The notes below the pieces were generated by a model that saw only the letters and a program-made list of their open reading frames with translations, ran no database searches and was not told where the DNA came from. Shown here one piece after another: positions 3,449-23,342 of a stretch of 26,142 nt of DNA; the first letter of the stretch is position 1, and every line of letters starts with the position of its first letter. The position numbers and the translations under genes were made by a program. The DNA is taken from the IMG/VR virus record IMGVR_UViG_3300033145_001750, positions 1-26,142 of that record, one strand, 5' to 3'. Source of the DNA: a virus.

Positions 3449-3662
3449 TATTACGGTGACGAAAAATCTGATTGAAGAATTGGAAGATATGTGGCAGGGA
3501 ATGAGATGGAGAGCAACATGCCAAGATGTACCTATTCGGGAAACGTGGGAGAACTCCCATATTGAGGATACTATTTTGATGAAAAAAACAGGGGTGGCCC
3601 CATGTTGGCACAATGAGATAGAAGACGCGATGATCAGGTGGATTGATAATCATGCTGAATAA
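3408..3662 (+). CDS. Small protein of unknown function between terminase and portal
   Basis: The 84-residue frame starts at GTG 3408, overlapping the terminase end by 41 bases, with a G-rich stretch (GGGGAG, 3391-3396) upstream. A second GTG at 3456, just after the terminase stop, would give 68 residues and avoid the overlap, and I cannot decide between them. The protein has an acidic helix (LIEELEDMWQGM), two cysteines (CQDVP and APCWHNE) and a helical end (EIEDAMIRWIDNHA). It overlaps the portal start by about 11 bases. I do not recognise a family. Its place between terminase and portal suggests a head or packaging accessory role, but this is context only. Confidence 0.6.
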   Translation: MLGLTEQPRAWTGNITVTKNLIEELEDMWQGMRWRATCQDVPIRETWENSHIEDTILMKKTGVAPCWHNEIEDAMIRWIDNHAE

Positions 3663-5850
3663 ATTAAAGGGCGGCATTAAGAAAATGTTTCAGGCAAGTA
3701 ACCCGCCTATGGGTGAGATTGCGACCACTGAATCTGCTATTTATAAAGACTTGGGTTTTCGGGAGTATAATCCTGATTCGCTAATTCGGAGTAAGGGGTT
3801 TAGCAAAACTTATGACGAAATGAGGGTGGATGACGAGGTGAAAGCCTCATTATCCCTCAAAAAGCATGCCGTGTTGGCCCCTGGGTGGGAAATTGAGCCA
3901 GCCAGTGAGGATGACGAAGACCAGGAGAAAGCGGAGTTCATAGAAACCGTTTTCGAGCAAATGGGAGGGGCACTGGATGACGCTCTTTTGCAGATATTAA
4001 CGGCCCTTGATTATGGGTATAGCATTACAGAGATCATCTGGGGTGTAATGGAAGAGGGGCAATACAAAGGCAAGGTCGGAATAAAAGCTTTAAAATCAAA
4101 ACGCCCCCACCTGTACGAGTTTGATACAGACGAATATGCGAACCTCAAACCAAAAGGATTAGTTCAGACGGGGCTTGGTATGGCGGACGAAAAAGCGTTG
4201 CCCGTCAACAAGTTCATCATATACTCGTACCAGAAAGAGTTCGGGAACTGGTATGGCATGTCAGATTTACGCGCGAGCTATCGGTCGTGGTGGTCGAAAG
4301 ATAATATAATAAAGTTCTGGAATATCTATCTTGAGCGGTTCGGCTCACCCCTTACGGTCGGGAAATATAAAACCGCTAATACTGCCAGCATCACAGACCT
4401 GAAAAACATCCTGAATAATTTGCAGTCAAAAACCTCTATCACCCACAGAGATGGAGAGTTTGATTTATCATTTTTGGAGCCACAGAGAAGATCAACAGCA
4501 GACTATCAAGCCGCGCTGGATTATCATAACAAATCAATAGCCCGGTCAATCCTTCTGCCGGACAGGCTGTCTTCCGCTGGAGAGACAGGCGCGTATGCCC
4601 AAGCTAAGGTTCATTTTGATGTCTTCTTGTGGGTCATTCAAAAGCTGCGACTTGACCTCGAAAGTGTTGTCATGCAAGAACAGCTGATCCGGCGATTGAT
4701 GGGCTGGAATTACCCTGATGCGGGGCAGTTACCAAAATTCAAGTTTCGCCCGCTGACGGAAGAACAACGTCTCGCACTGGCGGACGCGTTTGCTACAGCG
4801 GTACAGAAAGGGGCAGTGGTCGCAACCTCTGAGGATGGCAACCATATCCGAAAAGCACTCAATTTTCCAGAGCAGGAAGAAGCAGAGATACCACAGCCGG
4901 GGCCGAAAGAGACACCCACAAAACCAAAAGAGGAAGGCACGCCTGCCGACGCTGAAACTGGTGATGGCGAAAAAAAGAGCATGTCAGGGCTGTGGCGTGA
5001 GAAAACACAGTACGAGAAGAAGGTCGATTTCGCACGGATTGAAACAGACTTGGATAAAATAGAAACGGATGCCATATCAGATCTGCAAACAGTTCTCGAA
5101 AAACAAAAGAATGCCTTGACCGCATTCGTGGCAAATAAAATCTCAAACAACAAGCTGACCTCACGGCTTATCATGACTGGAATTGACCTGAAATATACGA
5201 GAGAGCTAAAGACAATAGTGTCCGGCATGTTTAGTTTGACGTATGTAAAAGGAAAGAAGGACGCATCAGCAGAAATCCCAAAACGATTCATAAAGGCGAA
5301 GCGTGATATTGCCGTTACCCCGCAGAAAGCTCTTGATTATTTCGAGGCCAAGACAGGATTTGTGGTCAAAGGAATCAAGGACCCGTTAGTTTCCGAAATA
5401 CAAGCTGTCTTGCTATCCACATTGCGGGATGGATTGTCCGTGCCGGACACGATCAAGAGGCTGGAAGACGTTTACCTGCCTTACTTATCAGCCGGTGATA
5501 TAATTATTGATCAGAAACAACTTACTCCGTACCGGATGGAAGCGATAATCAGGACGAACATGAGCGAGGCGTATAATTTCGGGCGGCGGGCGATAGGTGA
5601 AGACCCTGATCTTGAGGGTTATGTTATCGGGTATCAGTTTTCAGAGATTATTGACGCGCGGACGGCGGAAGTTAGCCAGTATGTGGACGGAAAAATCATA
5701 TCGGTGAAACATCCCAGCTTGTCGTCCTTGAGTTACCCGCTCCATTGGAACGAACGAGGCATGTTTGTTTTTATAACTACGGATGAGGCCCCGGTGACGA
5801 TGATGTCAGATGCGGAGGTCAGCCGGGCCATTAGCCTGAAAGGGATATAA
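3652..5850 (+). CDS. Portal protein (DUF935, Mu gp29-like) fused to Mu F-like minor head protein
   Basis: The ATG at 3652 is chosen because AGGTGG (3636-3641) lies 10 bases before it; an in-frame TTG at 3643 would leave only one base. The 732 residues hold two modules. Residues about 1-405 match the DUF935 portal family: RVDDEVKASLSLKKHAV near the start, ALDYGYSITEIIWG, YGMSDLRASYRSWWSKDN and LERFGSPLTVGKY. A Pro/Glu/Lys-rich linker covers about 407-443. From about 545 the protein resembles the Mu F/SPP1 gp7 minor head family, with TPYRMEAIIRTNMSEAYNFG, then IIDARTAEVSQYVDGKI and LHWNERG. In Mu these are separate genes 29 and 30. The portal ring is the DNA channel at one capsid vertex, and the minor head part sits with it inside the procapsid. 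Confidence 0.92.
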   Translation: MLNKLKGGIKKMFQASNPPMGEIATTESAIYKDLGFREYNPDSLIRSKGFSKTYDEMRVDDEVKASLSLKKHAVLAPGWEIEPASEDDEDQEKAEFIETVFEQMGGALDDALLQILTALDYGYSITEIIWGVMEEGQYKGKVGIKALKSKRPHLYEFDTDEYANLKPKGLVQTGLGMADEKALPVNKFIIYSYQKEFGNWYGMSDLRASYRSWWSKDNIIKFWNIYLERFGSPLTVGKYKTANTASITDLKNILNNLQSKTSITHRDGEFDLSFLEPQRRSTADYQAALDYHNKSIARSILLPDRLSSAGETGAYAQAKVHFDVFLWVIQKLRLDLESVVMQEQLIRRLMGWNYPDAGQLPKFKFRPLTEEQRLALADAFATAVQKGAVVATSEDGNHIRKALNFPEQEEAEIPQPGPKETPTKPKEEGTPADAETGDGEKKSMSGLWREKTQYEKKVDFARIETDLDKIETDAISDLQTVLEKQKNALTAFVANKISNNKLTSRLIMTGIDLKYTRELKTIVSGMFSLTYVKGKKDASAEIPKRFIKAKRDIAVTPQKALDYFEAKTGFVVKGIKDPLVSEIQAVLLSTLRDGLSVPDTIKRLEDVYLPYLSAGDIIIDQKQLTPYRMEAIIRTNMSEAYNFGRRAIGEDPDLEGYVIGYQFSEIIDARTAEVSQYVDGKIISVKHPSLSSLSYPLHWNERGMFVFITTDEAPVTMMSDAEVSRAISLKGI

Positions 5851-7108: not shown

Positions 7109-7462
7109 ATGAGAATGGACGAGTCTTTTGTCGCGAATGAAAATTTGGAGTCATACCAGTATGCGTTAGTTGTCAATTCTGCCAGTAACCTTGTGGGCAG
7201 ATCAGGCACAGCCGGGGAAATGTGTCTTGGAGTTTTGCAGAACAAACCTCAAAGTGGTGAAAATGCGACCATAGTAATGATGGGCCGTTGCCGGATAAAG
7301 GCTGGGGGCACTATCGCTGCTGGAAATGAGATTACAGCAACCGCAAGTGGTACGGCTGCGGCGGTAGCATCAGGACAGTACATACTTGGTTTGGCGATTA
7401 CTGGCGTTGCCAGTGGAGGAAACTTTACCGGGCTAATCAATCACGCTGGATATAAAGGATAA
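7109..7462 (+). CDS. Capsid decoration/cement protein (DUF2190-like)
   Basis: An AGGAGG at 7094-7099 lies nine bases before ATG 7109. The 117-residue protein is Gly/Ala/Thr-rich and predicted all-beta, with MGRCRIKAGGTIAAGNEITATASGT in the middle and YILGLAITGVASGGNFTGLI at the end. This is the layout of small DUF2190-type proteins found just before the major capsid gene, which bind the outside of the capsid and stiffen it. The call rests on composition and the exact place between scaffold and coat. A second Met two codons in (7115) could also start it. It has no signal peptide. It is a candidate surface target for the glycosyltransferases encoded downstream. Confidence 0.78.
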   Translation: MRMDESFVANENLESYQYALVVNSASNLVGRSGTAGEMCLGVLQNKPQSGENATIVMMGRCRIKAGGTIAAGNEITATASGTAAAVASGQYILGLAITGVASGGNFTGLINHAGYKG

Positions 7463-7473
7463 AGGGGGGAAAA

Positions 7474-8427
7474 ATGGGAGCAACAGGCAGAGATTTACAC
7501 ATTGACACACCATTGACCAATATGGTGATTGGCTTTGAACCGCAGGGGTTTGTCGTGCAAAACATCTTCCCCTCAGTCGCGGTTAAAAAACAAAGTGACG
7601 TATATTATAAATGGGAAAAGGGTGATTTTTTCAGAATACCGGATACCCTGAGAGCACCTAAAACCAAAGGACGGAGCGTGGTTTTTAATGTTTCATCTGA
7701 CACTTATTACGCTCCGAATTATGCTCTTGTCCACGAGGAAGCTTTCGAGGACATGGGGAACGCTGACCAGGTATTGAAAGGCAGGCAAAAAAGGGTCCGG
7801 GCCTTGAAGAATTTGCTTTATCTGGATTGGGAAAACAGGGTAGCGTCAATGCTCACATCGGGCAGTAATCTGGGGTCATATACTACACTGTCGGGTACAA
7901 GTCAGTGGTCGGACTACGCCAATTCTGACCCGGTGAATGATATTGAGACTGGGAAGGAAGCGATCAGGTCAACTACCGGGCTGGACACTAATCTAATAAT
8001 TGTAGGCCACACGGCGCATAGGAAGCTTATACACCACCCTGATATACTTGATCGGATAAAATATGTACAGAAGGGTGTTGTCACTGCGGACGTTCTGGCG
8101 GCTGTTTTTGACGTCGAGAGGTACGTGGTCGGAAAAACAATCAAAAACACAGGTAGCGAAGGATTGACTGACAGTTTCAGCGATGTGTGGGGCGACAATG
8201 TTGTATTAGCGCATGTTACCAACGGCCCTGATCCTGACGGAAAAGACCCGTCTCTTGGATATTCTTTTAGATGGGAGGCTCCGGGCCTGGGCGGAAACCA
8301 ATGGGCGGCTGAAATCTGGAACGATCCTAACGGTGGCAATTATGAGAACCGGAGACTCCAATATTTCCAGGATGAGAAAATAACCGCCTCTGAATTGGGA
8401 TATCTGATTATAGACACGGTTGCTTAG
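7474..8427 (+). CDS. Major capsid protein
   Basis: The 317-residue protein follows the scaffold and decoration genes and is preceded by GGGGGG (7464-7469). Its start, with DTPLTNMVIGFEPQGFVVQN and IFPSVAVKKQSDVYYKWEKGDFF, resembles coat proteins of the HK97-fold family found in several Proteobacterial siphophages, where LTN...FPSVPV marks the N-terminal arm and first strand. The central HEEAFEDM, the long helix around LKNLLYLDWENRVASML and the C-terminal WAAEIWNDPNGGNYENRRLQY fit the spine helix and P-domain strands. It would form the capsid shell. Family membership below the fold level is not certain, but the genomic position leaves little doubt about the function. Confidence 0.9.
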   Translation: MGATGRDLHIDTPLTNMVIGFEPQGFVVQNIFPSVAVKKQSDVYYKWEKGDFFRIPDTLRAPKTKGRSVVFNVSSDTYYAPNYALVHEEAFEDMGNADQVLKGRQKRVRALKNLLYLDWENRVASMLTSGSNLGSYTTLSGTSQWSDYANSDPVNDIETGKEAIRSTTGLDTNLIIVGHTAHRKLIHHPDILDRIKYVQKGVVTADVLAAVFDVERYVVGKTIKNTGSEGLTDSFSDVWGDNVVLAHVTNGPDPDGKDPSLGYSFRWEAPGLGGNQWAAEIWNDPNGGNYENRRLQYFQDEKITASELGYLIIDTVA

Positions 8428-8438
8428 GAGATTGTGGA

Positions 8439-8606
8439 ATGAAAATAGAGGTTCTTTGCAGTATAAATAGCGGGGAATACGATAAAGGCATGACCATGAG
8501 CCTACCACGTAATGAAGCTTTGAGGTTAATCATGATTGGAGCTGCTAAAAAAATCCCGCTAAGGAAGAAACCCACTAAAAAAAAGGAGCAATTAGATGGG
8601 AATTGA
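8439..8606 (+). CDS. Small protein of unknown function with basic tail
   Basis: The 55-residue frame starts at ATG 8439, eight bases after an AGGAG (8426-8430). It reads as a short strand pair, then a helix, then a Lys/Arg tail: DKGMTMSLPRNEALRLIMIGAAKKI followed by PLRKKPTKKKEQ. The pattern of Gly..Thr/Met..(Leu/Val)..helix..G-A-A resembles many short phage proteins of the G.T...(E/D)..A..L...G.A type, and the gene at 14275 has the same layout. Its role is unknown. Its stop overlaps the next start by 11 bases, so it is translated with its neighbour. Small proteins like this often sit after the coat gene and could be involved in head joining, which is inference. Confidence 0.65.
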   Translation: MKIEVLCSINSGEYDKGMTMSLPRNEALRLIMIGAAKKIPLRKKPTKKKEQLDGN

Positions 8607-9003
8607 AAAAATAAGAAGACGGCTGGTAGGGAAGGGGGGAATGGATTCCCTTGCGGTCGGTTCGTTTGGCACAGTGAACGTGAACTCAGTAGTAAAAACG
8701 TTCAATGCTGCCATCACGGGTGTTGCTTCTCTTGCAGCGGCTACCTTAACAGCAATCAGCGGCGACGGTGCTTGGAGGGGGATTACTACCGTACTGAGTG
8801 GATTAGCGACCGCTACGATATCAGCCACCGCGGCGACAAGCGGGTTTCCTATCATGGTATCCCTGGGGGCTACATCGGTTACCAGTCATAGAGACCTTGT
8901 TGTCAGCGTTGATTCTATCGTCGATGGGGTAAGTTTTTCAGCGGTAACAAACCTGGCAACGGTAGATGATCAAGAAGTTGTATACACAATCATCGGGGGT
9001 TAA
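8596..9003 (+). CDS. Structural-type protein of unknown function
   Basis: The 135-residue protein has a good ribosome binding site (A-run plus GGAG, 8577-8588) and starts at ATG 8596. It is strongly Ala/Thr/Ser/Val-rich and predicted to be beta: FGTVNVNSVVKTFNAAITGV, then TAISGDGAWRGITTVLSG and a run of TATISATAATSGFPIMVSLG. Such low-complexity beta proteins after the coat gene are usually minor head or decoration proteins. No motif gives a firm family. The gene next to it (9006) has similar composition. Many Ser/Thr residues make it a possible substrate for the following glycosyltransferase gene, though nothing in the sequence proves this. Confidence 0.65.
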   Translation: MGIEKIRRRLVGKGGMDSLAVGSFGTVNVNSVVKTFNAAITGVASLAAATLTAISGDGAWRGITTVLSGLATATISATAATSGFPIMVSLGATSVTSHRDLVVSVDSIVDGVSFSAVTNLATVDDQEVVYTIIGG

Positions 9004-9005
9004 TC

Positions 9006-9290
9006 ATGGGATCGAGACACCTGCAAAATAGCTTTATGAGGATAACAACCGAGGGAACAACGGTGGTGCAGAGTGCCGGAAACTCAGGTGTGCTTGATGG
9101 CATTGTGCCTGGGATTGCTGGAGCCGCATCGTCAACTATCATTGCCCAAAACTCAGCGGGGGTAATTTTTATGAAGCTGGACGCAACGGATGTACATCCG
9201 AGGACAGGCTTAAATTTAAAGTTCCCGGATGGGCTGTCAATGGTTACATCGGGGACTACCCCGCCGGATTACACAGTTTTATTTCGATAA
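9006..9290 (+). CDS. Structural-type protein of unknown function
   Basis: The 94-residue protein starts three bases after the previous stop. It is Gly/Ser/Thr-rich with a beta pattern, including RITTEGTTVVQSAGNSGVLD, AASSTIIAQNSAGVIFMKLD and FPDGLSMVTSGTTPPDYTVLF. That composition fits a small capsid or connector surface protein, like the preceding gene. No ribosome binding site of its own is obvious, and it probably depends on coupling with the upstream gene. I do not recognise a family. It directly precedes the large glycosyltransferase gene by 24 bases. Confidence 0.62.
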   Translation: MGSRHLQNSFMRITTEGTTVVQSAGNSGVLDGIVPGIAGAASSTIIAQNSAGVIFMKLDATDVHPRTGLNLKFPDGLSMVTSGTTPPDYTVLFR

Positions 9291-9314
9291 TTTCAAAAAA
9301 AGGAGATTGCCTAA

Positions 9315-12167
9315 ATGAGCAACAAAATGAAACTTAATATTGTTTTTTATGTCAACGGGATGACATTTGACGGAAACTCGCTTAAGACTCATAGCCTGGG
9401 CGGGTCTGAAACAGCCGGATTGTGCATGGCCAGGGAGCTCGCAAAAAGAGGGCATGATATTACTATGTTTTGCAACACAAAAAACCCCGGCAAAGTAGAC
9501 AATGTCAATTACATCCCGATTGAGCATTTCAGCCCGTACATGGCATACACGGCAACGGACGTACTGATTGCTCAGCGAGTGCCCCAAATTTTCACCTCAC
9601 CAATGAAATCAAAAATCAATATCCTCTGGCAGCATGATGTTGGCCTGAAAAGGATGAGGACTGATTTCATGGGGAGCCTATGGAATGTGGCTGAGGTATG
9701 GGGCTTGTCAGATTTTCACATTAAGCAAATGTCAGAAACATACGGAGTGTCGGAAGATTTATTTTGGAAGACACGGAACGGCATTGATCCTATCAGACTC
9801 ACACCCCAAAAACGCAACCCGAAAAGATTAATTTACACTGCCCGGCCAGAGCGTGGAATGGACGTTCTTCTCCGAGATATCATGCCTAAGATATGGGCGC
9901 AAGACCCAGCTATGGAATTGCACCTCTGCGGTTATGACAACACCGTGCCTGAGATGGTGCAGTTTTATGATTCGCTGCATGCGATGATAAACGATTACCA
10001 AAAAAAAGGACTTAAAATAAAATGGTTGGGGGCACTTACCAAAAAAGAGCTTTACAAGGAATATCAGAGGGCTTCCTTATTTGTTTACCCAACCGAGTTT
10101 GAGGAAATCTCTTGCATCACAGCTATGGAATGCATGGCGTGTGGCCTCCCAATGATAGGGAGCAAGCTGGCAGCACTGCCTGAAACGATTGCTGATGGGG
10201 CTGGCATCTTGTTGGACGGCAACAACAAAAGCGAAGAATATCAGGAGAAGTTTATCAAGACAGTGTTTGACGTGCTGAATAATCCTGAGCAACTGAAACA
10301 AATGAGACAGGCGGGGCTGGATGCGGCTGGAAAGTTAGCGTGGTCAGATGTTGCGGTTGAGTGGGAATCTCATTTTTACGAGATGTTTGAAAAACTAACG
10401 GAAAACAAAGAAACCCTTGCGAAACATTTGTACCGCAATGAGGATATCATTACTCTGAAAGAAATAGCGAGCCCTACTTGGAAGGAAAAAATAGATAAAG
10501 AATACCCACTGCTACACAGCACAGAATCTTACAATGATATGTATAATCTACAAGGTCATACAGTGCCCCCACTGGAAAAACTGAATGAATACACACGTGT
10601 CAAGGTCGTTATGAATCTGTTGGCCGACTATGAACCTTTTAATCTGCTCGATTATGGCGGCGGGATTGGAAATGAAGCGATACAGTTCGTCAACACTTTT
10701 GGGTGTCAAGTCACCACGGCGGATATATCGCTCTCTCAGCAAGACGTAGGGAAGCGGATGGCTGATAGGCTATGTACCGCACCGGAAAAGATAACATGGA
10801 AGATATGTGACCAACCAAAAGACCTTAAATTCTCTTATGATGCTGTATTCGCGGGCGAAATACTGGAACACCAAATTAAACCATGGGACTTTGTTGACGC
10901 GCTGGAAAAACAGTGTGATGAGGGGGGGCTGTTAATTTTCACCGTGCCTCTTGGGCCGTGGGGGGATGTGGAGGGACTCGAATACAGAGGGCATTTGTGG
11001 AACTTCGAGAAATCAGATTTGAGGGACATGTTCGGGAATAAAAAAGACCTCATGATAAAAATGGTAGCAGGCCCAGCTAATGAAAAAAATGGAGAAACGT
11101 TGGGCTGGTACGTAATTGCCTACAAAAAAAATTCAAAGATACCCACGGGCAAAATAGACATGCAGCGTAAAATTTCCATACAAGCACCGAGGCAAACAAT
11201 ATCAACCTGTATGATCATAGGCGGAAAGCAAGAGGGCCTTCTCCACAGATGCCTTGATTCGATATTGTTAATATCGGATGAAATAATTATTGCGGATACT
11301 GGTATGAATCGCACATGCCTGGAAATTATTCAAAGCCCTAAATATCAGGGGCGTATAAAGGTTCTGCCTAACTCACCTGATCCTCTAAAAGATGGGTTTA
11401 ATAAAGCTCGAAATCATGTGATATCGAAAGCTAAATGTGACTGGATCCTCTGGATAGACTCAGACGAAGAATTGTTAACACCTGTGAATTTATTCAAATA
11501 TCTCAGGGAAAATATATATCAAGGATATTCGATTAAACAGCACCACTTTTCAGCACAGCCGCCTAACGCATTTAAGCCGGACATCCCTATCCGATTATTC
11601 AGAAATCACAAAGGAATTAAGTTTTTCGGGGTCGTACATGAACACCCGGAAAAATCATTAAATGAGGGGGTCGGAGTATCAACCTTATTATCTGATGTGG
11701 ATATAGCACATGATGGATATCTGACGGAAACAGGCAGGCGTAAACGCTTCAACCGAAACTTTCAATTGTTATTACGGGATAGAGAAAAGTATCCAGACAG
11801 GGAGTTAGGAAAGTTCCTTATTATGAGGGATTGGATTTTACTATCTCGCTACGAACTGGAAATGAACGGTGGAAAATTAACGCCTCAGATCGAAAAGAAT
11901 TGCCGGGCGGTTGTGAAAATGTACCAGGATGAATTTTTGGGCAAAAAGGGGCTTATGTCTGCTGATGGGTTGCAGTTTTATTCTGAGGCACTTGAGTTTT
12001 TAAGAGAAGGCTTTTCTTACATCTTCAACCTCAATGTCCACCCGCAAAAAGCTCAAATTGCAGGGGATGACACTACTGCCAGATTTGCAACCAAGGATGA
12101 TTTTATTACGTTCATGAAAGCGAACCTTGATACCCTAAAAGAACCGTTCGATGGGAGATATATATAA
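9315..12167 (+). CDS. Multidomain glycosyltransferase (GT4) - methyltransferase-like - glycosyltransferase (GT2)
   Basis: The ATG at 9315 follows an A-run plus GGAG (9295-9305). The 950 residues hold three domains. Residues about 1-370 form a GT-B, GT4-like glycosyltransferase: SLGGSETAGLCMARELAKRG near the start, ARPERGMDVLL, and the conserved Glu-x7-Glu at Glu264/Glu272 (EISCITAMECMACGLP). Residues about 430-610 look like an SAM-dependent methyltransferase, with the motif I loop DYGGGIG at 446-452 and FAGEILEH near 513. Residues about 625-950 form a GT-A, GT2-like domain with STCMIIGGKQEGLLHRCLDS, Asp715-Ser-Asp717 in WIDSDEE and FFGVVHEHPE. It would use nucleotide sugars and SAM in the cytoplasm. 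Lying between capsid genes and head-completion genes, it probably modifies virion proteins, but cell-surface glycans are also possible. No truncation is seen. Confidence 0.85.
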   Translation: MSNKMKLNIVFYVNGMTFDGNSLKTHSLGGSETAGLCMARELAKRGHDITMFCNTKNPGKVDNVNYIPIEHFSPYMAYTATDVLIAQRVPQIFTSPMKSKINILWQHDVGLKRMRTDFMGSLWNVAEVWGLSDFHIKQMSETYGVSEDLFWKTRNGIDPIRLTPQKRNPKRLIYTARPERGMDVLLRDIMPKIWAQDPAMELHLCGYDNTVPEMVQFYDSLHAMINDYQKKGLKIKWLGALTKKELYKEYQRASLFVYPTEFEEISCITAMECMACGLPMIGSKLAALPETIADGAGILLDGNNKSEEYQEKFIKTVFDVLNNPEQLKQMRQAGLDAAGKLAWSDVAVEWESHFYEMFEKLTENKETLAKHLYRNEDIITLKEIASPTWKEKIDKEYPLLHSTESYNDMYNLQGHTVPPLEKLNEYTRVKVVMNLLADYEPFNLLDYGGGIGNEAIQFVNTFGCQVTTADISLSQQDVGKRMADRLCTAPEKITWKICDQPKDLKFSYDAVFAGEILEHQIKPWDFVDALEKQCDEGGLLIFTVPLGPWGDVEGLEYRGHLWNFEKSDLRDMFGNKKDLMIKMVAGPANEKNGETLGWYVIAYKKNSKIPTGKIDMQRKISIQAPRQTISTCMIIGGKQEGLLHRCLDSILLISDEIIIADTGMNRTCLEIIQSPKYQGRIKVLPNSPDPLKDGFNKARNHVISKAKCDWILWIDSDEELLTPVNLFKYLRENIYQGYSIKQHHFSAQPPNAFKPDIPIRLFRNHKGIKFFGVVHEHPEKSLNEGVGVSTLLSDVDIAHDGYLTETGRRKRFNRNFQLLLRDREKYPDRELGKFLIMRDWILLSRYELEMNGGKLTPQIEKNCRAVVKMYQDEFLGKKGLMSADGLQFYSEALEFLREGFSYIFNLNVHPQKAQIAGDDTTARFATKDDFITFMKANLDTLKEPFDGRYI

Positions 12168-12640
12168 TGGCGGTATATACCACAGTCGCAAAAGTTACTG
12201 ATTTATTTCCAAAAATAAAAGATACCCAAATTTCTTCCGCTTCAATTGCGTTTTATATCAATCAGGCGGAGGCTGAAATAAACGGGCGGCTGGCTCCTCA
12301 ATACTCCCTGCCATTTTCAACAACTCCGGCCTTAATCGAAACGATTGCAACGGAATTGAGTTTAATAAAAGTACTTGACAGATTCTTTACATCGGAGGCC
12401 AGAAGCTCAAACAGTTGGCGTGACACACGGAAAAAGGACGCGCAAAATCTGCTTGATGGGATCGCGAACGGGAGTATGTCGCTGATCAACAGTTCCCATA
12501 CGATCATTAATCCTCGATCTGATTTGCACGGGATAGTCTCTAATACATCAGAATACACACCAACCTTTTCGCACTTGGGAGAGGGGAGCCAAGAAATTGA
12601 CCCTGACAGGCTCGATGATGAAACGGACGATCTGGACTAA
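12167..12640 (+). CDS. Head completion/connector protein (DUF1320, Mu gp36-like)
   Basis: The 157-residue protein starts in a TAATG overlap with the glycosyltransferase stop. Its N-terminal part, VAKVTDLFPKIKDTQISSAS and YINQAEAEINGRLAPQYSLP, is the DUF1320/gp36 pattern, followed by a helical ETIATELSLIKVLDRFF and an acidic, probably flexible tail (DPDRLDDETDDLD). These proteins bind under the portal and extend the head exit channel to the tail. The next gene is a gpG-like protein, as in Mu (36, then G region). The acidic tail is a mild oddity. The call is well supported by sequence and order. Confidence 0.84.
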   Translation: MAVYTTVAKVTDLFPKIKDTQISSASIAFYINQAEAEINGRLAPQYSLPFSTTPALIETIATELSLIKVLDRFFTSEARSSNSWRDTRKKDAQNLLDGIANGSMSLINSSHTIINPRSDLHGIVSNTSEYTPTFSHLGEGSQEIDPDRLDDETDDLD

Positions 12641-13086: not shown

Positions 13087-13523
13087 CAGAGATTAATTAT
13101 TACACGATTGAGACTACATTGAAAAGCCTGTTAGAACAAGACTCAAGGCTGATTGACTTGGGCGCGACTGTCATGGTGGAAGAATCTTTCAACCTCTTGG
13201 CGGACTTATGCCCGTGGGTGGGAATCTACCTCACCGAGTGGGAGTCACCTGAAGACGAGGAAAGGATTGGCGGGACTTCCCCTGTCCTCACTTACCTGAC
13301 CCTTGAGATTTGGCTTTATGAGTGTGCAATTGAGCTGAAAACGGCGGCTAAGAACAGAGACACCCTCCTGAAAAAAGTAAAAGAGGTCTTGAAAGAAAAC
13401 AGAACAATCAGCGACACGGTCTTAATCACCAGGTTTGATGGTGGTGAGTTTGATAGCGGTGCCACGGATGACGGATATTTCAAGGGCGTGTCTATCAGGA
13501 TGGAATGTGAGGTCAGGGAATGA
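13083..13523 (+). CDS. Tail terminator-like protein
   Basis: The 146-residue protein starts in an ATGA overlap with gpG-like. It has an N-terminal helix (YYTIETTLKSLLEQDSRL), strands ATVMVEESFNLLADLCPWVGIYL and YLTLEIWLYECAIEL, a helix KNRDTLLKKVKEVLKEN and C-terminal strands ending VSIRMECEVRE. This alpha/beta order is that of the small tail-terminator or tail-completion proteins (Mu gp37-like or lambda gpU-like) that cap the tail tube next to the head. No catalytic motif exists or is expected. The call rests on fold pattern and on position between gpG-like and the tail tube gene, so it is a moderate one. Confidence 0.68.
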   Translation: MTEINYYTIETTLKSLLEQDSRLIDLGATVMVEESFNLLADLCPWVGIYLTEWESPEDEERIGGTSPVLTYLTLEIWLYECAIELKTAAKNRDTLLKKVKEVLKENRTISDTVLITRFDGGEFDSGATDDGYFKGVSIRMECEVRE

Positions 13524-14278
13524 TCATAGTTTCTTGCTGCAACAGGGACGGCGGAATTTTCACGATTGATGAAGATAACCTGAAAGTGAAAAAAGTGATC
13601 ACTCGTGAAACAAGGGGGGTCGATATTGATGGTGACATTCTTTACGCTTGCAGCTCAGACGGGTTACAGGTTTATGACGAAGGTTTCAACCTAATTAATA
13701 AACTCCATATACCGAACGATTGGCACGGGCTGAGAATCTACAATAACAAGATATGTGCCTTGGTAGCTAATAAAGACACTCTCTTTATGTTTCTGAAAGA
13801 CATGACGCCGAAAGGGTCTGTCTCTATGAGGTACGGGGACTCTAAAGAGGGGCGGAATCATATCAATGACTTGTTTTTTTATGGTGGCAGTTCTTTTTTT
13901 TCGATGTTCAGCGCAGAGGCAAGGCCGAATTATACCAAAGGTGACGGTTGTATAAAAAACGACACGGGCAGCAGCAAAACGGTTATTTCTGGCTTAGTTC
14001 AGCCCCACACGCCTTATGTTTATGAGGGAGAACTCTATTATTGCAACTCAGCGAAGGGCACAGTTGAAAAAGAGGGAGAGGTACTTTTCAGCACGGGGTC
14101 TTATCCACGAGGGATTGAAATAACAAAAAAATACATGTGGGTAGGATGCTCAGAAAATAAGCACGATCACACTAAAGGGGAATGCGGGATTGTTAGGCTG
14201 TCAAGGGAAGGGGATTCTGTGTTCATTCCATTGCCAGCTCATGAAGTTTACGGGATTGTAAGGAGGGGAGGAGCATGA
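13520..14278 (+). CDS. Beta-propeller-like protein (DUF4915-like), unusual in this position
   Basis: The 252-residue protein starts in an ATGA overlap. It shows repeated propeller-blade strands: RGVDIDGDILYACSSDGLQVYD, WHGLRIYNNKICALVANKDTL, HINDLFFYGGSSFFSMFS, QPHTPYVYEGELYYCNSAKG and PRGIEITKKYMWVGCSENK. Spaced motifs such as His-Asn/His-Asp-Leu-(Phe/Tyr)-(Tyr/Asp)-Gly and Pro-His-(T/S)-Pro resemble DUF4915 and TIGR03032-type propellers. No signal peptide or membrane segment is visible. Standard siphophages have no such gene between the tail terminator and tail tube, so it may be a virion decoration or adhesion protein, or cargo. Function is not established. The propeller reading is moderately sure, the family name less so. 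Confidence 0.6.
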   Translation: MIIVSCCNRDGGIFTIDEDNLKVKKVITRETRGVDIDGDILYACSSDGLQVYDEGFNLINKLHIPNDWHGLRIYNNKICALVANKDTLFMFLKDMTPKGSVSMRYGDSKEGRNHINDLFFYGGSSFFSMFSAEARPNYTKGDGCIKNDTGSSKTVISGLVQPHTPYVYEGELYYCNSAKGTVEKEGEVLFSTGSYPRGIEITKKYMWVGCSENKHDHTKGECGIVRLSREGDSVFIPLPAHEVYGIVRRGGA

Positions 14279-22682: not shown

Positions 22683-23342
22683 GTGAAAAAGACTCGAAAA
22701 TCAGTTTTAATTTCATTCCCGAACTTATATTGGATTCATAAACATGTTGTTCATAAGGCATTGCTTTTACAACAAGATGGCCGGTATAAACTCAATATCA
22801 TAATGCCATCCCATAAACCTTATGAAAACAATCTGCATCATATTGTCAATGATTTTATGAGTGGTGATTATGATTTTTGGCTGAATATAGACTCTGATAA
22901 CCCCCCGATGAGGAACCCTCTGGACCTTGTTGTATTAAATAGGGATATCATAGGCCTTCCAACTCCGGTGTGGCATTATGACCCTAATAATAAAAAAAAG
23001 GGTGAAAGGCCAATATATGAGAATGCTTATGCCTATGATGAGCAGGTTGATGCCTACAGAGAATATCAAAATAAAAAAGGATTACAAGAGGTGGATGCCA
23101 TTGGTACTGGGTGCTTTCTTGTAGCTAAGAGAGTCTTCGAGAATGAAAACATGCGGAAAGCTCCATTTGAAAGAAAACTGTACCATGATGGCACGGTGCA
23201 TAAAGGGAATGATATCAGTTTCTGTGAGAGGTTGAGGGAAAATGGGTTTCATATCTACGCCCACTTTAACTACCTGTGTGACCACTTCTCGGAAAAGAGT
23301 TTAATCGAAACCAGCAACGCTTTTAGGAACCTATACGTATAA
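22683..23342 (+). CDS. GT-A-fold glycosyltransferase
   Basis: The 219-residue protein starts at GTG 22683, three bases after the previous stop. It contains a GT-A nucleotide-sugar and metal site Asp70-Ser-Asp72 in LNIDSDNPP, followed by VVLNRDIIGLPTPVWHYDP, then DAIGTGCFLVAKRVFE and GNDISFCERLRENGFHIYAH, which carries the acidic catalytic region typical of these enzymes. It would add a sugar to a cytoplasmic acceptor. The gene ends in a TAATG overlap with the repeat-protein gene, so the two are probably translated together, and that protein is the first candidate acceptor. It is more AT-rich than the surrounding tail genes. The fold call is good; donor and acceptor are unknown. Confidence 0.82.
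   Translation: MKKTRKSVLISFPNLYWIHKHVVHKALLLQQDGRYKLNIIMPSHKPYENNLHHIVNDFMSGDYDFWLNIDSDNPPMRNPLDLVVLNRDIIGLPTPVWHYDPNNKKKGERPIYENAYAYDEQVDAYREYQNKKGLQEVDAIGTGCFLVAKRVFENENMRKAPFERKLYHDGTVHKGNDISFCERLRENGFHIYAHFNYLCDHFSEKSLIETSNAFRNLYV

Follow-up and report, generated by a model that had tools for sequence, protein, structure and literature searches.

Why would a virus encode two glycosyltransferase (GT) domains and a methyltransferase (MT) domain in one protein, and why among the genes for its particle? The window analysed here is a complete virus record of 26,142 bases (IMG/VR record IMGVR_UViG_3300033145_001750). In it, an open reading frame on the plus strand at 9315–12167, stop codon included, encodes a protein of 950 residues and follows a Shine-Dalgarno-like AGGAG (9301–9305, +). 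Profile matches place terminase, portal, protease, a cement/scaffold-type head protein (7109–7462, +; Phage_cement_2, 1e-5; phrog_673, 2e-17) and the major capsid protein (MCP; 7474–8427, +; phrog_1005, 1e-73) upstream, and a gp36 head-tail adaptor (12167–12640, +; Phage_Mu_Gp36, 4e-11; phrog_195), a tail completion gene and a tail terminator gene downstream. Elsewhere in the window, a single 735-residue frame (3643–5850) fuses the portal (Portal_Mu) to a MuF-like domain, and the portal frames of relatives are likewise long (635–788 residues). A 252-residue protein with a DUF4915 match (13520–14278; 9e-10) is inserted after the tail terminator and ahead of the following tail gene, and no homologue of it was present in the related loci fetched. 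A second glycosyltransferase-like gene (22683–23342; phrog_1574, phrog_12406; NIDSD motif) lies 3' of the tail fibre gene.

A first-pass annotation, made from the sequence alone, had read the 950-residue protein as a GT4-MT-GT2 fusion from Glu264 and Glu272, a DYGGGIG loop (residues 446–452) and a DSD site (residues 715–717), all of which are present in the single frame. Consistent with this reading, Pfam returned the C-terminal GT4 domain Glyco_trans_1_4 (1e-16, residues 171–315), Methyltransf_23 (3e-9, residues 438–572) and Glycos_transf_2 (7e-10, residues 640–720), each above its curated cut-off. The GT4 domain (9315–10424, +; approximately residues 1–370) has the E-x7-E of retaining GT-B enzymes together with a Foldseek match to MshA (1e-16), and its nearest folds are MshA/PimA, which identifies it as a general GT4. 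Across 64 distinct sequences, H107, R177, R180 and E272 are invariant, and E264 is kept in 62 and replaced by Asp in 2. The GT2 domain (11178–11894, +; approximately residues 622–860) is of the GT-A class by its invariant D-x-D and SunS/ThuS fold; D715, D717, E718, H775 and E776 do not vary in the same 64 sequences. Between them, the class I SAM-dependent MT domain (10578–11150, +; approximately residues 422–612) carries motif I as DYGGGIG (D/E-x-G-x-G-x-G) and matches PDB profiles of small-molecule methyltransferases, including a D-glucose O-methyltransferase. Of the three catalytic domains it varies most, but most members keep motif I (D446 in 60/64, G452 in 57/64). Residues 861–950 (11895–12164, +) form a mainly helical C-terminal region in the AlphaFold2 model.

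Are these domains an integrated enzyme? An AlphaFold2 prediction of the full chain, made with 48 relatives, reached a pLDDT of 91.8 and a pTM of 0.89, indicating that the chain folds into one defined unit whose domains are not loosely strung. Profile searches and structure prediction, two of the checks that the annotation had proposed, recovered three intact domains and a confident fold for the whole chain. The enzyme is under purifying selection, with dN/dS values of 0.04–0.08 in 12 close pairs and of 0.01–0.13 for the separate domains. It contains no membrane-spanning segment (maximum 19-residue hydropathy, 1.37), and a soluble enzyme is indicated. Some members are over-long (L115:386-4444, L118:7395-11246, and also L132, L275 and L263). 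We considered the approximately 300 extra residues of the 1283–1352-residue versions as a fourth enzymatic domain and rejected this for the two examined, in which the extra residues are inteins lying within the GT2 part (LAGLIDADG type in L115, HNH type in L118); in L275, the interruption falls in the GT4 part, near residue 268. Inteins typically occupy conserved sites in important genes.

When IMG/VR was scanned with the window enzyme as the only sequence, no relatives came back, because the six patterns used are private to it. An alignment-based scan that used the enzyme alone recovered 147 relatives and 80 were retained; nearly all match along their whole length. Adding the loci retrieved by way of the capsid protein brings the full-length loci to 169, in 105 clusters at 90% identity; the IMG/VR relatives are 32–57% identical to the window enzyme. 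So many full-length homologues, together with the low dN/dS, show that the reading frame is more than a chance one. The tri-domain protein was not found in 50,697 named phage records, where the best match covers 34% of it and no cultured member is present, or in 84,980 prokaryote genomes. A prokaryotic source was therefore rejected: the genomes gave only GT4-level matches at 25–29% identity, at most one or two of them with another weak segment. In the data searched, the family is known from uncultivated viruses only, and in the literature we found no described GT adjoining the MCP for this clade.

How firmly is the gene tied to the head module? It lies between the MCP and the gp36/tail-completion connector in all 61 clusters in which both markers are visible and in none of them elsewhere; a first count of the same placement had given 47/47 loci. 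The gene had been placed within the structural operon from the window alone, and this position thus extends to its relatives. What the annotation took to be rare for a phage GT, a place between capsid and head-completion genes, is the rule in this clade. It had further argued from a stop/start overlap for late co-expression with the virion. The overlap is real in the window, where fusion gene and gp36 share base 12167 within TAATG (12165–12169, +), but it is not conserved in relatives: the gap to the connector is within approximately 30 nt in only 14 of 63 loci, and elsewhere it measures between 250 nt and 7 kb. Moreover, in three clusters (L004, L061, L063 and their near-copies) the enzyme gene occupies the unchanged slot antisense to the head genes, and must have a promoter of its own there. 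As a general argument for co-expression the overlap is therefore rejected, and because the gap varies, the conserved property is linkage to the MCP and not translational coupling.

The converse search, of IMG/VR with the capsid protein alone, gave 144 loci: 95 contain a GT4-GT2 frame, which in 94 cases includes the MT domain, 30 have a partial frame at the contig end and 19 stop short. Every MCP-matched contig that reads far enough (125/125) thus carries the enzyme gene or its cut-off start or part, and none of the 144 has MCP and connector without it. From both directions, the GT is genetically tied to a structural protein. Outside the clade, related MCPs that lack the enzyme are followed by gp36 directly or by a beta-helix-like or unknown protein; the approximately 305-residue outgroup gene in this slot was examined as a shorter GT and rejected, being of the beta-helix-like or unknown kind. 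In a maximum-likelihood MCP tree, all GT-bearing MCPs fall on one side of a single branch (support 100/99), and GT and MCP identities are correlated (Spearman 0.63). Taken together, the reverse search, the tree and the correlation argue that the enzyme gene is a core gene, vertically inherited in this clade.

The slot between MCP and gp36 also holds other genes. A NUMOD4/HNH homing-endonuclease-like gene lies immediately upstream of the enzyme gene in L011 (9395-9931), L174 (9258-9794) and approximately 14 more loci, and a radical SAM gene occupies the slot in several relatives (for example L259:9325-10074 and L107:6989-7852). In the Arthrobacter phages Kovu (L154:5303-7606) and Ottawa (L157:5339-7642), an unknown 767-residue protein fills the slot between MCP and connector; the Kovu protein, the one searched, had no glycosyltransferase match in Pfam. 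Some islands hold further glycan genes: two GT4-GT2 genes in L097, an additional GT4 gene in L092, and a GT4-GT2-like gene with a GDP-mannose 4,6-dehydratase in L127. Such additions are expected of glycan synthesis and, with the arrangement in podovirus MW202524 described below, make it more likely that glycans are built close to the head genes.

What kind of acceptor does the GT2 domain resemble an enzyme for? Compared with solved GT2 structures in the PDB, its profile matched GmaR (1.7e-34), SunS (6.7e-26) and ThuS (5.6e-23), followed by TarF-type teichoic acid enzymes (1.6e-9). Among the top Foldseek matches, the GT2 folds are likewise SunS and ThuS, and SunS was the sole NCBIfam model matched by all 27 members. 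The score against this model (TIGR04195) was 52 bits for an equivalog cut-off of 350, and identities of GmaR and SunS to the domain are 15–22%. Judged from these profiles, the GT2 domain is a relative of the SunS peptide S-glycosyltransferase, not a member of that family. It appears nearest to protein/peptide glycosylation enzymes among GT2s of solved structure, a set that leaves out LOS glucosyltransferases of the same subgroup, which are not in the PDB. In NCBIfam, the GT2 domains of several members also match polysaccharide enzymes.

The domains with their catalytic residues, the fold, the selection, the lock beside the capsid gene and the presence throughout the clade lead us to a virion-glycosylation reading: this is probably a core enzyme, specific to viruses, by which a virion protein is glycosylated and likely also methylated. 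The annotation had proposed a single-chain machine for adding and methylating a glycan on capsid or decoration proteins; its three domains and capsid-side position stand, and the kinship of the GT2 domain to protein/peptide enzymes adds to them, whereas the overlap on which it also leaned is not general. The orientation antisense to the head genes in three clusters is evidence against the virion reading. As we picture it, the soluble enzyme would build a short, probably methylated glycan on its acceptor. The protein/peptide-type GT2 domain would attach the first sugar to a Ser or Thr, the retaining-type GT4 domain would add a second, and the MT domain would O-methylate, and so cap, one of the sugars; having all three activities on a single chain would hold the growing glycan in place. 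The acceptor, the sugars, the order of steps and the effect on the particle are all proposed by inference.

Which virion protein would be modified? The most likely acceptor is a bulk protein made alongside the enzyme, that is, the MCP, the cement protein or a decoration protein. Adjacency to the MCP does not prove that the MCP is the acceptor. A Ser/Thr loop (T/S-S-x-S-N-x-G-S) just past the predicted spine helix occurs in 88 of 134 distinct GT-bearing MCPs and in 0 of 27 GT-lacking ones; in the window it reads TSGSNLGS at the end of that helix (MCP residues 128–135; 7855–7878, +). All GT-bearing MCPs belong to a single clade, so descent may explain this association equally well, and we keep the loop as a lead only, a candidate acceptor site. 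Further candidates are two Ser/Thr-rich products encoded between MCP and GT: a 135-residue protein (8596–9003, +; Ser+Thr 23%), possibly a decoration protein, with homologues in a few relatives, and a 94-residue protein immediately upstream of the GT (9006–9290, +; Ser+Thr 21%), with no family match in Pfam or PHROG. A bolder proposal, which we hold as a tentative minority view, is that throughout this clade of tailed phages the methylated glycan is an obligatory head component and not an optional shield: as a core gene, the enzyme would have co-evolved with one MCP lineage, and particles would need the sugar to assemble or survive.

Could the enzyme act elsewhere? It might alter a host surface glycan (O-antigen, LOS core or capsule), excluding superinfecting phages or releasing progeny from receptors. 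Serotype conversion by phage GTs is classical, the fold neighbours of the GT4 domain include the lipid/LPS enzymes PimA and WaaG, and the polysaccharide-type NCBIfam matches point the same way. However, the gene belongs neither to a lysogeny nor to an early module but to the head module, and it cannot be separated from a single MCP clade. A Gtr serotype-conversion cluster would combine GtrA with a temperate lifestyle; in 20 long contigs, possibly incomplete, a GtrA flippase occurred in none and an integrase-family gene in one, so the setting of serotype conversion is absent, and we regard this reading as rather unlikely. Alternatively, the acceptor could be a part of the virion other than the capsid, such as a tail fibre or the connector, or a host protein during takeover. 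A protein-directed GT2 class is not specific to capsids, and the islands between GT and gp36 hold, among others, large Ser/Thr-rich proteins and tail-like ones (for example one of 690 residues in L195, with a phrog_5939 tail-protein match). Yet these island genes differ from phage to phage while GT and MCP are constant. We regard this reading as a whole as improbable, with a virion acceptor outside the capsid still quite plausible.

Some viruses encode GTs that act on DNA (Pyle 2024, as cited in PMC12619734), and the enzyme could in principle glycosylate a modified base of the phage genome. Looking for the base-hydroxymethylating enzymes of the thymidylate synthase family alone, we found the thymidylate synthase/dCMP hydroxymethylase family in only 2 of the 20 long contigs, possibly incomplete, while the GT is in 20/20; the late head-module position and a GT2 domain akin to protein/peptide enzymes also speak against DNA, and we think this very improbable. 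Cargo of other kinds does occur in the slot (HNH homing endonucleases, radical SAM genes and, in the outgroup, beta-helix proteins), as would suit a horizontally carried moron unconnected with the virion. Morons come and go, whereas this gene is in every member tested and is inherited with the MCP, so this is the remotest of the readings. Thus, we retain modification of a virion protein as the probable function.

So far, capsid glycosylation has been demonstrated in only a handful of cultured phages, where it is a trait of certain genomes; in the present case, a glycan-building enzyme seems to have become fixed next to the capsid gene across a whole clade of environmental phages. Confirmation would mean that virion glycans are far commoner in nature than cultured phages imply, which would bear on particle stability and on how particles adhere and are recognized. 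The fused enzyme would offer a compact, testable tool to write methylated glycans onto proteins, and its gene a precise genomic marker with which to find glycosylated phages.

How does this enzyme compare with known systems? Its residues 1–370 share the fold of MshA/PimA-type GT4 enzymes, but these are single-domain proteins with small-molecule or lipid acceptors and an identity of just 13–20%. The GT2 domain shares its fold with SunS and ThuS (7msp, 7msn, 7msk), and the F/G-x-VHE and GY motifs align over approximately 200 residues; in contrast, SunS and ThuS are stand-alone glycocin S-glycosyltransferases, to whose family cut-off the fusion enzyme does not rise. GmaR of Listeria (22ao), a flagellar glycosyltransferase/anti-repressor, is the top sequence relative in the PDB and keeps D-x-DE, HE and H-x-GYLT, but it is bacterial and flagellum-related, and the matched chain is without a GT4 or MT domain. 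A parallel in gene arrangement is the Manatee Spring podovirus MW202524 (locus L057), in which a GT2-TPR-GT4 gene and further GT and MT genes stand straight behind the MCP; its domain order is reversed, its methyltransferases are separate and its head genes unrelated, so the arrangement apparently arose independently. Virion glycosylation is itself known from mycobacteriophages: Che8, Rita and relatives are described as bearing phage-directed glycans on capsid and tail-tube subunits (Freeman et al. 2023, as cited in PMC11256854 and PMC12619734), and by that account they share phage-encoded glycosyltransferases with the viruses studied here. In the related mycobacteriophage Maravista, the GT genes are separate and are found towards the genome's 3' end, away from the MCP (PMC11256854). 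Set against these descriptions, a single methyltransferase-bearing chain, locked between MCP and connector and fixed throughout a clade, is new as far as we have searched.
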